Origin: Thermosulfuriphilus ammonigenes
GTDB lineage: Bacteria; Desulfobacterota; Thermodesulfobacteria; Thermodesulfobacteriales; ST65
Direction: 5' to 3'
Length of the DNA: 64,000 bases
Assembly: GCF_011207455.1 (NCBI RefSeq)
Contig: NZ_CP048877.1
Location: forward strand, 1,294,576 to 1,358,575
Made by a program: the position numbers and the translations under genes. Below the pieces are notes generated by a model. The model was given only the letters and a program-made list of their open reading frames with translations, was not told where the DNA came from and did not search any database. Below, in pieces: positions 29,628 to 35,520 of the stretch. Each line of letters begins with the position of its first letter. Position 1 is the first letter of the stretch.

Positions 29628-31166
29628 ATGCAAATCTTTTCTTTTGATCCCCAGAGCCTGGATCTGGCCCGGGGGCAGACTCCCCGACGTCTCCTTCTCC
29701 AGCTTGGCGAGACCATTGTGGCCACGGTCATCGGTCGCGAAGATGAGGGCCTGATAATATCAGTAAAGGGTAAGCTCCTTCGGGCCCAGGTAGAAAATGA
29801 AAACTTTCCTCCCGGCACCCGTTTGCGACTGGAGGTCATCGATGATGGGGTGCCGGTAAGGCTTAAACTTTTAGAGACCCTGGCCCCTGAGGGGAGAAAA
29901 GATCCTCTTCTTCTGGCCTTAAAGGGCCTCAAAGGCTCTCTGGCCGCCGGCCATAAGGTCCTTAAGGGATTACCTGGTGCGGCGGAAAGATTTTCTCTGG
30001 CCGGTGATCCTCAGCCGCTAAAAATACTTTTGGTCCAGGCCCTGACCAAGGAGCCACAAGGGTTTTCCTCCGGGGTCTTAAAGGCCCTTAAATCCCTGTT
30101 TAAAGTCATTCCTGACCCACCATCGGAGGGCTCTCCGGCCCCCGGGGCTCTGCTTAAAGCCTCAGATCCCCCTTCCTCCTCCCCAGGGAAGGTTCTATCG
30201 CCGGAGACAACCTCTTTGCCCAAGGCCCCTCTTAAAGGGAATCTGGATCCAGTAGAGACCGGACAGAGGCCCCCGGAGATAAAGGCCACCCCCCAGGGGG
30301 AGGTCTCTTTCTCCCGGCCGTCGTTTAATAAGGAGCCTCTTTTAGAGGCCTCTTCATCTATAAGTTCTCAGATAAATTCTCAGAGAGTAGCCTCTAAGAG
30401 AGCGGGGCTGGCTTCAGGATCCCCTGTGGAGACATCTCGGATCAATCCCTCTGAGGCCTCCTGGGGCCCTCAAAAAATCTTAAAGCCACCGGCTAAAGGG
30501 GAGTTTCTGGCTGATCCTCCGGCCTCCGAACAGGTTAATTCTCTCTCCGATACCCCTCGAGAGTCTCCGCCAGGAAGGAGGCCTTTAGGGAAGGCCGGAG
30601 CTCCGGTGTCTCTTTCTTCCTCCTCTAAAAAGGGGGTCGAAAAGCCCGAACTTACCCTTCCCCAAACATCTTCTGGGCCTGAGCCCGCTTCCTCATTAAG
30701 GGCTGATTCTAAAAGATCCTCCTCGCGGCTTGAGGCCCTTCAGGATCTTTTGCTTCAGACGGCCTCCTCCCTTCAGAGACTCCAGTATCTTTTGGCCTCC
30801 TCCACCGGGCTGGAGATGCTCTTTATCCCCCTTTGGTTTCGAGATGGTAGTCAGGGATATCTGGCCACCTTTGCCGAGGAAGAAGGAGAGCGGCCCGTTC
30901 GGTATCTGTTGTTTAACCTCCATCTTTCCGGTTTGGGAGAGCTAGGTATTGAGCTTCGCCTGGAGGCGGAGGTCTTTGATCTTGAGATTCGCGTGGCCCA
31001 TTCGAGCGTAAAATCCGCTGTGGAGTCGGCCCTTCCTGAACTCCTGGATCGCCTCACCCTTCTGGGCTATCGTCCCCGGGGAGTCAGGGTTTTGGTGGCC
31101 GCTACCGATCCTCTGGTGTCTCGTTGGCGAGAAGGCCCTAAGGCCGTGGTAGATCTGTTTGCCTGA
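29628..31166 (+). CDS. FliK-like flagellar hook-length control protein
   Basis: 512 residues in three parts. The N-terminal part (1-120) is a small beta-rich domain with VATVIGREDEGLIISV. Residues 120-370 are a Pro/Ser/Lys-rich low-complexity linker. The C-terminal part (about 380-512) resembles the FliK/Flg_hook domain (GLEMLFIPLWFRDGSQGYL, SGLGELGIELRLE). FliK proteins measure hook length and switch export specificity through FlhB. The stop overlaps the start of an FlhB-C-domain gene by one base, which supports the call. The identification rests on architecture and the neighbour. Confidence 0.7.
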   Translation: MQIFSFDPQSLDLARGQTPRRLLLQLGETIVATVIGREDEGLIISVKGKLLRAQVENENFPPGTRLRLEVIDDGVPVRLKLLETLAPEGRKDPLLLALKGLKGSLAAGHKVLKGLPGAAERFSLAGDPQPLKILLVQALTKEPQGFSSGVLKALKSLFKVIPDPPSEGSPAPGALLKASDPPSSSPGKVLSPETTSLPKAPLKGNLDPVETGQRPPEIKATPQGEVSFSRPSFNKEPLLEASSSISSQINSQRVASKRAGLASGSPVETSRINPSEASWGPQKILKPPAKGEFLADPPASEQVNSLSDTPRESPPGRRPLGKAGAPVSLSSSSKKGVEKPELTLPQTSSGPEPASSLRADSKRSSSRLEALQDLLLQTASSLQRLQYLLASSTGLEMLFIPLWFRDGSQGYLATFAEEEGERPVRYLLFNLHLSGLGELGIELRLEAEVFDLEIRVAHSSVKSAVESALPELLDRLTLLGYRPRGVRVLVAATDPLVSRWREGPKAVVDLFA

Positions 31167-31441
31167 TGAAAAGAAACAAAGCCATTGCCCTTAAATATCA
31201 GCCCAAGAAGGATTCGGCTCCCCGGGTAGTGGCCAAGGGGGCTGGAAAGCTGGCGGAAAAGATCCTCCAGGCCGCCCGGGAGGCCGGGGTTCCCATTCGG
31301 GAAGAGCCGGATCTTCTTGAAGTCCTTTACCGCCTGGAGATAAACCAGGAAATCCCTCCAGAGACCTACATCTTGGTGGCCGAGATTCTGGCCTGGGCGT
31401 GGCGGCTTAGCGGACGTTTGAAGGAAACCTCCGGGGCCTAG
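31166..31441 (+). CDS. FlhB C-terminal-domain protein (FlhX type)
   Basis: 91 residues matching only the cytoplasmic C-domain of FlhB/YscU export-gate proteins: IALKYQPKKDSAPRVVAKGAG, IPIREEPDLLEVLY-like and IPPETYILVAEILAW. The autocleavage NPTH sequence is replaced, and the N-terminal membrane part is absent, as in FlhX proteins that can stand in for the FlhB C-fragment. It is fused translationally (one-base overlap) to the FliK-like gene. It converges on nagZ with a four-base overlap. Confidence 0.85.
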   Translation: MKRNKAIALKYQPKKDSAPRVVAKGAGKLAEKILQAAREAGVPIREEPDLLEVLYRLEINQEIPPETYILVAEILAWAWRLSGRLKETSGA

Positions 31442-32687: not shown

Positions 32688-35093
32688 ATGTCGTGGCGCA
32701 ATCTTTTTCGCCTCTCTATTGCCGGTCGGTTGAGATTCTCCATTATTGGTGGGGTTCTTCTTCTCACCCTGGCTTCAGTTTTAGTGGCCTACTTTAAGGG
32801 GCGAGCCCTTCTTCTTAATAGCACCTCTGAACATCTTGTTTCCTTAAGAGAGGCCAAGGCCCAGGAAATTACCCATTACTTTGAGTTTCTGGGAGACAGT
32901 CTGAGCGTGATGGCCTCCAACGAGGAGGTTAAGACGGCTTTGATAGATTTCTCACAGGCCTTTAAAAAGGCAGCCGCGGTGGTGGATCTCGATCTGGCCC
33001 GTCGGCGTCTCCTTGAACACTATCAGAGCCACTTTCTGCCCCGGATAAACACGGAGGTTCCCGGAGTGGCCCCACTCCGCGGGGCCAGCGCCCTTTTGCC
33101 CCGGGATCCAAATGCCTTGGCCCTTCAATATCTTTATATTCACGAGGACTTCAACCGGGCCCCGGTGGGAGAGAAGGACCGTCTGGTTTCCCTGAGGCTT
33201 GATTTCCCTTACAACCGTCTTCATGCCCGTCATCATCCCTGGTTTCGACAGGTGCTAGAGAGGCTGGAGCTATACGATATTTTTCTTATCGATACCCAGG
33301 GCAATGTGGTCTATACGGTCTTTAAAGAGAAGGATTTCGCCACCAACCTTCGCCATGGGCCTTATGCCCGAAGCGGGCTGGCCGAGGCCTTTCGCCGAGC
33401 CAGTCAGGCCGGGGCTGACGAGCTGGTAATTGTCGATTTTGCTCCCTATGAGCCCAGCTACAACCTGCCGGCGGCCTTTATGGCTACCCCGGTCTTTAAG
33501 GCTGGTCAGCGAATTGGTGTTCTCTGCATCCAGCTTTCAACGGCCACTATTGACGAAATTATGAGCTTTCACCGGCGCTGGGCCGATGTCGGCCTAGGCC
33601 AGACTGGAGAAGTTTATCTGGTGGGCCCAGACAAGTTTATGCGTAACGACAGTCGTTTCCTTGATGATCTGGGGCCTCTGGTCAAAAAGGTGGGTACCAC
33701 GATTGGAATAATCCGGGTAGACACCCCGGCGGTGGCCAAAGCCCTCTCTGGCCAAAGAGGCGTGGAAATGGTTACTGGTTATCGAGGTCTCCCGGTCTTC
33801 TCTGCCTATGCTCCCCTTGAACTTCCCGGTGGCCTCCACTGGGCTATTGTGGCCGAGGAGGCCAAAGAGGAAATCATGGCCGGTCCTCATCGTCTGGCCG
33901 TTTATCTCCTCGGGGCGGGCCTCACTCTGGGAGTGATTGTCTTGGCCCTTATCGGGCTGCTGGTGGATCGATCTGTCATCAGGCCCCTTAAAGAGCTGGT
34001 GGTCACCCTTAAAGACTCCATTGTCAACGCCGACCTTACCCGGGAGATCTCCGATACCAAGGTAAATTGCTCAGAGATTCAGGACTGCGGCCAGGAAGCC
34101 TGTCCTTCTTTTGGCCGTGAGGGCCAGTGCTGGTATGAAACCGGTAGCTATGCCCGGAGGATCCACTGCATAAAACTCAAAGACGGGACCTACAAAAGCT
34201 GTGAGGAATGTCCTGTTTACCGGCAGGCCATTGTCACCGAAATCGATGAAATAACCACCTTCCTCCATGGTTTTTTCCGTCGCCTTCGAGAGCTGTTGAA
34301 TCAGGTCCGCCATCAGGGACAAAAGGTAGTAGAAGAATCGGAGATGATGATCCATGCGGCCGCGGAGATGGTCACCAGTGCTCAAACCACCGAGGAACGC
34401 AGTCAACAGATCAACCAGGCCTCTCAGCTGGCCAGCGAAAATGTCAGTGGCATGGCCGCCGCCCTGGAGGAAATGACAGCTACCATCTCCGAGGTGGCTA
34501 AAAATACCGGTGAGGCCAATGCCGTCGCCCAGGAGGCGGCTCAGGAGGCCGGTTCAGCCCAGGAAGTTATTGTCCACCTCCAGGAAGCCTCCAAAAAGAT
34601 TGGGCAGATAAGCCATCTTATCGGTGAGATTGCCGAGCAGACCAATCTTTTGGCCCTAAACGCCACCATTGAGGCGGCCCGGGCCGGGGAGGCCGGCAAG
34701 GGCTTTGCCGTGGTGGCCGGCGAGGTCAAGGAGCTGGCCCGCCAGACTAGCCAGTCGGTGGAAGAAATAGACCAGGTCGTTCGGGGCCTTCAAGAGCGGG
34801 CCAGCCAGGCCGTAGCCGCTGTAGAACGGATCGTCTCCGTTATCCAGAAGGTAGCTGATTTTTCTACCAATGTGGCTACGGCCATCGAAGAGCAGACTTC
34901 GGTGATCAACGAACTGAGCGGCAACGCCCAGAACGTGAGCACCGAAGTCTCAGGGGTGAGCCGCATGAGTGAAGAGATAGTAGCCGTGGTAAGTCAAGCT
35001 TCCTCCGGGGCCAGGGAGGTAGAGCGGGCAGCCAGAGATCTGCGGCAGCTATCTGAGAAGCTGGAAGAAGAACTTAACAACTTTCGTATTTAA
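32688..35093 (+). CDS. Methyl-accepting chemotaxis protein with Cys-rich insert
   Basis: 801 residues. TM1 is at about 17-36, then a periplasmic Cache-like sensor to about 400, then TM2 (about 402-426) and a HAMP-like linker. At about 461-513 there is a Cys-rich insert: [24 protein letters not shown] and [10 protein letters not shown], with C-x5-C and C-x2-C spacing. The rest is the signalling coiled coil, with the hairpin tip [24 protein letters not shown] that binds CheA/CheW. The insert resembles the two-CW-type motif found in deltaproteobacterial sensors and might bind metal or sense redox state. GGAGGGGG precedes the ATG. Confidence 0.93.
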
Positions 35094-35165: not shown

Positions 35166-35205
35166 CTAGCCTGAACTTACTGATTTAACCAAAGGAGGTT
35201 TGGCC

Positions 35206-35520
35206 TTGAAGGTCGTTGATCTTAAAGAAACAAGGGTTTTTGAGGGAGATATAAAGAAGTTCTGGCTCCATGATTCTCCTTATTTCCGGATCATTAATTT
35301 TAATATCAAGGCCGGAAAGACCTTTCCTGTCCATTCGCATCAAGTAGAGGGGCAGTTGAGTATCCTGGTCCTGGAGGGAGAGGGAGAATTTCTGGGAGAG
35401 GGGGACAAGGCTATCCCGGCCCGGGCCGGGGAGATGCTTATCTGTGATATCAGTGAGCCCCATGGTGTTCGGGCCCGGACTGATATGCGGATCTTGGTGA
35501 CTATTGCTCCGCCCTTCTAG
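35206..35520 (+). CDS. Small cupin-domain protein
   Basis: 104 residues forming one cupin barrel. Motif 1 is IKAGKTFPVHSHQVEGQLSILVLEGEGEF and motif 2 GEMLICDISEPHGVRA, with three histidines likely to bind a metal. A TTG at 35206 lies seven bases after AAGGAGG and is taken as start; an earlier TTG at 35200 is too close to the ribosome site. Substrate unknown. Neighbours do not define a pathway. Confidence 0.8.
   Translation: MKVVDLKETRVFEGDIKKFWLHDSPYFRIINFNIKAGKTFPVHSHQVEGQLSILVLEGEGEFLGEGDKAIPARAGEMLICDISEPHGVRARTDMRILVTIAPPF

Follow-up and report, generated by a model that had tools for sequence, protein, structure and literature searches.

A divergent two-CW-type cysteine module, predicted to split the HAMP domain of a Thermosulfuriphilus ammonigenes chemoreceptor, as a candidate cytoplasmic sensor

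HAMP domains are among the commonest signal relays of bacteria and are usually viewed as converters of signals that arise elsewhere. According to the available text of PMC3570549, which we also follow for the HAMP roles of the AS1 proline, HR1, and HR2, HR2 of the connector and the DExG position set HAMP output and the response to extracellular ligand, and mutation of HR2 moves the output to an activating state. A second point of reference is the two-CW domain, which is already catalogued as NCBIfam NF045718. A literature search, for which subscription papers were mostly out of reach and which is weak evidence in this respect, returned no publication on the two-CW domain and no description of an insertion in the HAMP connector, so the architecture reported below is undescribed in the literature searched. 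Among chemoreceptor-associated input domains, CZB (chemoreceptor zinc-binding) is a helical His/Cys zinc domain. It resembles the module reported here as a metal- or redox-linked input domain that occurs with chemoreceptor and other signalling domains (available text of PMC8262984); however, our module conserves cysteines and appears to lie inside HAMP, and is thereby set apart from CZB by description. Furthermore, the Geobacter heme-c MCPs GSU0582 and GSU0935 are chemoreceptors that carry a cofactor and have HAMP and MCP domains, but their heme resides in the periplasmic sensor, whereas the putative cofactor site discussed here would be cytoplasmic and within HAMP; the available text of this Geobacter chemotaxis review (PMC8396549) yielded no HAMP-inserted cysteine module.

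The receptor described here is encoded in the window, a 64,000-nucleotide stretch of DNA from Thermosulfuriphilus ammonigenes, and has the following features (window coordinates, strand, description):

32688..35093, + strand: chemoreceptor (MCP) gene, 801 aa, an open reading frame with Pfam matches to dCache_1 (7.7e-14) and MCPsignal (1.6e-31)
33267..33854, + strand: dCache_1 match (Pfam), residues 194-389, inferred to be periplasmic, the side being assigned by eye from flanking hydrophobic stretches
33900..33965, + strand: predicted second transmembrane helix, residues ~405-426, a hydrophobic stretch found by eye, within the first long helix of the AF2 model
33966..34064, + strand: predicted HAMP AS1 and first part of the connector, residues 427-459, from alignment to a same-genome paralogue with an uninterrupted HAMP
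34065..34235, + strand: predicted inserted two-CW-like cysteine module, residues 460-516, boundaries +/- ~3 residues
34236..34322, + strand: predicted HAMP AS2, residues ~517-545, placed by the start of homology to ordinary MCPs, with E518 at the DExG position
34509..35000, + strand: MCP signalling domain, residues 608-771 (Pfam PF00015)

An earlier note on this DNA had pointed to a cysteine-rich segment with a CW pair at 34068-34230, situated between the membrane and the signalling coiled coil. Such a segment is indeed present, starting at residue 461, in a chemoreceptor reading frame with dCache_1 and MCPsignal matches; the second membrane helix precedes it, and the coiled coil follows. The number of eight cysteines given in that note has to be corrected to seven (461, 467, 472, 481, 494, 505, and 508, here C1 to C7), with W482 giving the C481-W482 pair; C280, the eighth cysteine of the receptor, belongs to the dCache_1 match and lies outside the module. 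Seven cysteines inside 49 residues were found in 1 of 100,000 shuffles of the window protein, so this clustering exceeds chance.

The segment had also been placed downstream of a HAMP-like linker. Alignments to paralogues and other MCPs indicate that it instead splits the HAMP domain into an N-terminal part (AS1 and connector) and a C-terminal part (AS2); in the window receptor, the connector residues L450 and I454 precede the insert, and AS2 begins behind it with E518. The most direct comparison is provided by an MCP paralogue from the same genome (L128) that lacks the insert; its HAMP reads GEADLTKRIPVRG-KTELDELASLVNSF and is matched by Pfam HAMP across the GEADLTKRIPVRG-KTELDELASLVNSF junction (1.2e-7, 32.3 bits, cut-off 25). 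In the window family, the cysteine module stands between the two HAMP halves that are contiguous in L128. The same uninterrupted arrangement is seen by alignment in L020, L021, and L023. Of the three uninterrupted paralogues that were scanned, L020 and L021 had no Pfam HAMP match at E<=0.01. Moreover, the homology of ordinary MCPs to the window protein begins at residue 515-520, in AS2, for 16 of the 26 aligned proteins, which were drawn from 28 loci examined. E518, the Glu in the DExG position where connector and AS2 meet, is invariant (30/30), and a predicted helix starts there in the AF2 model, at low confidence. C1 and the AS2 motif are separated by 55-57 residues in all 30 carriers, as determined with a pattern that requires the core cysteines and that also underlies the module-only profiles and the 18-locus placement survey described below. 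Among the matches listed in a phylum-wide profile search, 21 weak ones span only columns within 1-35 of 134 and 10 span only columns within 93-133, which correspond to the HAMP halves flanking the module. Compared with canonical HAMP (PF00672), the window receptor thus has AS1, connector, and AS2 flanking the module and a conserved Glu at the AS2 start, but its HAMP is broken by ~57 residues between connector and AS2. As judged from these alignments, the position of the cysteine module is within the HAMP domain, between the connector and AS2.

This placement was also examined by a splice test, in which the segment beginning directly ahead of C1 and ending directly ahead of AS2 was cut out and the product was scanned with Pfam. 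The 30 carriers comprised the window, nine MCP loci from metagenome contigs, and 20 kinase loci, the latter chosen among the matches of a profile in which the HAMP flanks are included, which biases their HAMP placement; L078, the locus of which ends at the contig end, was excluded. With the module removed, a HAMP match was obtained in 27/30 carriers (E<=0.1, best 8.2e-12) versus 21/30 for the native full-length proteins (E<=0.1, best 1.4e-7), a comparison of 88-residue stretches with full-length proteins. In an earlier trial, spliced L013 and L015 gave HAMP matches of 6e-5 (23.7 bits) and 0.0027 (18.4 bits), respectively, which are below the cut-off of 25; neither native stretch was matched. 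The window protein showed a Pfam HAMP match in neither native nor spliced form, and its HAMP assignment therefore rests on the alignment to relatives and to L128. Since the separate halves and the mis-joined control came from the window protein alone, the correct splice of which was unmatched as well, these controls are uninformative.

With regard to its family, the isolated window segment scored 12.2 bits against NF045718 (E 0.19), under the curated cut-off of 35, and the full window protein gave no NF045718 match at E<=0.1; the model matched 21 of the 30 carriers at this threshold. If the two-CW motif criterion is read from the family name alone, as was done here, the window module has one CW (C481-W482), with C461 preceding Ser. 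The first CW is CS in all ten MCP modules, and both Trp are present in all 20 histidine kinase (HK) relatives. The cysteine framework C1-C2-C3-C4-(C5)-C6xxC7 is found in the window module. In a comparison of module-only profiles, the ten MCP modules matched twenty HAMP-embedded kinase modules with a probability of 98.5% (E 1.7e-15). For 24 other two-CW modules, kept from 31 loci examined and mostly occurring on their own or N-terminally in their proteins, the probability was 93.4% (E 2.6e-7). Controls against the kinase profile reached at most 2.6% for five column shuffles and 0.7% for the reversed profile. On this profile evidence, the window module is homologous to two-CW modules, and since its score is below the cut-off and it has a single CW, yet shows homology at the profile level, we regard it as a divergent two-CW relative. 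The order C1..C2..C3..C4W..C5..C6xxC7-x-(F/Y) is common to both, whereas the MCP modules have CS for the first CW and the window segment remains under the family cut-off.

Poor conservation of the cysteines in relatives, which the earlier note had named as counting against its reading, was not seen: C1 to C7 are kept in 28, 28, 29, 30, 26, 30, and 30 of 30 sequences, respectively, and the Trp of the CW pair in 29. These rows are the best 30 loci of the phylum profile search, which applied no cysteine filter, and include the window; L059 begins after C1 and accounts for one of the missing C1s, and L058 has an internal stop. None of the seven cysteines is missing from the window protein or its six nearest relatives, and among 19 sequences (window included) C1 to C4, C6, C7, W482, and E518 are invariant, with C5 absent once. 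These two sets were likewise free of a cysteine filter; overall, the sequence sets overlap and are not independent, as the printed stretches of L069/L042, L073/L046, L075/L013, and L076/L012 look identical. C5 is a residue other than Cys in 4/30 rows, and L065 lacks C2. Furthermore, L064 (1495-1896, minus strand) represents a natural cysteine-poor version, in which the insert persists and C1 to C3 are lost (S, Y, and F there). Together, the gaps at C5 and the losses in L064 and L065 indicate that not all carriers need seven cysteines. Besides the cysteines, Pro follows C3 in 8/10 MCP, 18/20 kinase, and 21/24 other two-CW modules, and it also comes after C5 in 9/10 MCP modules, all but that of the window. 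His occupies two positions in 7/10 MCP modules, and mixed ligands are therefore possible in this set.

Across the phylum, the AS1-module-AS2 profile matched 103 of 395 genomes at E<=0.001, ordinary HAMP-half matches included, and a match that covers all or most of the module and extends at least to column 100, into AS2, was counted by hand in at least 75 of the 395. NF045718 matched 132 of these genomes, 116 of them over the cut-off, and none of 14 control genomes. Nine of ten relatives come from Thermodesulfobacteriota/Deltaproteobacteria metagenome contigs, and the tenth, L078, has the MCP module on a contig filed under a Heimdallarchaeota metagenome bin and is perhaps misbinned or transferred. 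A plasmid tblastn search with the window region and one HK relative as queries returned no match.

The genome of the window itself has five carriers: the window MCP, L004, L005, L006, and L008. Of these, L004, a stand-alone two-CW protein, and L005, a HisKA/HATPase kinase with the module at its C-terminus, score over the NF045718 cut-off; nine further loci have a module that ends a HisKA/HATPase kinase. L006 is a PAS-HisKA-HATPase kinase that stays under the cut-off (26.5 bits); its HAMP match extends over profile positions 2-27 of 53, the AS1 half only. The fifth carrier, L008, has 11.3 bits (E 1.11) and was assigned by its cysteine pattern. It (L008:1459-1947; C1:1513656-1513796 in its own genome) is a MerR-type regulator with a weakly scoring, C-terminal two-CW-like cysteine pattern and a possible soluble counterpart of the window module. 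In other genomes, the module is fused to cNMP-binding and protein kinase domains (L087, L092, and L102), to a SCO4226-like domain (L104), and, from an N-terminal position, to an adenylate cyclase (L091), which has a complete HAMP match outside the module.

The placement of two-CW modules was surveyed in 18 loci (L133-L150), comprising the two-CW matches listed with open frames of at least 500 aa, with G157:C2 and previously examined loci excluded. Nine modules are those at the C-terminus of HisKA/HATPase kinases noted above, five are near the N-terminus, one lies inside HAMP, and three (L133-L135) are off pattern, with the HAMP share being lowered by leaving out the previously examined L067, L068, L111, L117, and L127, all HAMP-embedded by eye. 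The possibility that two-CW modules are always embedded in HAMP was thus ruled out, as this holds for 1 of 18 loci, the kinase L150, whose HAMP match is confined to profile positions 1-23 of 53. The occurrence of two-CW modules outside HAMP implies that the HAMP position is not essential to the role of the module. L144-L148 (752-762 aa, PAS/HATPase) have the module near the N-terminus and show an odd pairing of helix-turn-helix and kinase-type ATPase, with a weak HTH_3 match, under the cut-off, directly before the module in four of the five. Among the 30 carriers, HisKA and HATPase are found in 20, MCPsignal in 10, and sCache_3 in 19; the window protein has dCache_1, and no Pfam sensor family was matched in the nine other MCP relatives at E<=0.001. 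With periplasmic sensors differing in this way, the module goes with the cytoplasmic relay and not with one recognisable periplasmic sensor.

We consider it somewhat more probable than the alternatives combined (roughly 0.55) that this divergent two-CW-type module of ~57 residues in the HAMP connector is a cofactor-binding (Fe-S or Zn) cytoplasmic sensor. A role as sensor or regulatory input, as suggested in the earlier note, fits with the fusion of related modules to several different signalling outputs, and six of the cysteines are almost invariant and include a CxxC, which points to a bound cofactor. The lineages of the identified carriers are known to be rich in anaerobes. Because of this and because Pro often follows some of the cysteines, which is a weak pointer to Fe-S, the conserved cysteines would be more likely to bind Fe-S than Zn. 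AF2 models of the window AS1-module-AS2 stretch (as a monomer; mean pLDDT 65, module blocks 41-65) and of the isolated module of the relative L069 (pLDDT 45) were uninformative and, at such low pLDDT, provide no fold supporting metal binding. Pfam gave no credible match for the native window segment. The best match of a PDB sequence search (E 0.53) was judged to be chance, leaving no solved relative by sequence, and a Pfam FeS match in L013 (9.4 bits, cut-off 23, E 1.2) was likewise taken as chance.

The cysteine-rich composition, the CxxC, and a length that, at ~57 residues, is near-constant in the 30 carriers and in the range of small Zn folds would also suit a structural zinc knuckle, which binds Zn constitutively, replaces or stiffens the HAMP connector, and senses nothing. 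However, the paralogue manages with a HAMP that lacks the insert, and related modules are found within Ser/Thr kinases, as the C-terminal part of HKs, in a MerR-type protein, and as stand-alone proteins. These varied settings look like those of a portable input rather than of a connector brace, and we consider a purely structural role unlikely. A cofactor-free thiol switch, in which disulfides form and break with oxidants, would agree with the numerous conserved cysteines and with the HK and stand-alone sets, where no position is His in at least 70%. Yet a simple thiol switch requires only two cysteines, while the six core cysteines, the CxxC, and the conserved Gly/Trp resemble a ligand shell, and the two positions that are His in 7/10 of the MCP set may provide His ligands; such a switch is accordingly rather improbable. 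Still less probable is that the module acts as a protein docking surface that recruits a partner to the receptor: while the stand-alone two-CW protein L004, encoded in the same genome, would be a candidate, no partner is known, and docking alone does not explain the conservation of the cysteines. Finally, that the module merely follows a degenerate linker, with the AS2-like sequence being ordinary coiled coil, is hardly credible, since the failure of Pfam HAMP to recognise the window protein (native and spliced) and the uninterrupted L020 and L021 is set against the HAMP match of L128 across the site, the Glu invariant in 30/30, and the HAMP matches of 27/30 spliced carriers.

If the module is indeed a cofactor-binding sensor, its position suggests how it might act. 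P433, L450, and I454, assigned by eye, are the putative AS1 Pro, HR1, and HR2 of the window receptor, and E518 would by position be the DExG Glu, such that the module would stand between HR2 and DExG. The fold of the module could change when the cofactor is loaded, lost, or altered in its redox state, which might in turn tighten or loosen the connector-AS2 junction at the DExG position; HAMP would then shift between two conformers, and CheA activity would change. In this way, the receptor could combine the input from its dCache ligand with an intracellular signal (redox, metal, or gas) at the level of the HAMP relay. As a tentative generalisation, for which the odds appear somewhat less than even, chemoreceptors and histidine kinases with a cofactor-bearing module in the HAMP connector might represent a receptor class in which HAMP is both relay and sensor. 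If true, the HAMP relay gains a cytoplasmic redox or metal input of its own, and the presence of the module where connector and AS2 meet, in chemoreceptors as well as in HKs, would be a natural experiment on connector control of HAMP. Moreover, the two-CW domain, for which no published function was found in the literature searched, gains a testable setting.

Further genes lie in the vicinity of the receptor gene. Upstream, a FliK-like gene (Flg_hook) is followed by a short FlhB C-terminal-like gene (29628-31441), and a glycosyl hydrolase family 3 gene is located in between on the opposite strand. On the other side, a gene for a small, cysteine-bearing CGGC-domain protein (PF08821; 35662-36012, minus strand) lies near the MCP gene, with a cupin gene (35200-35520) between the two.
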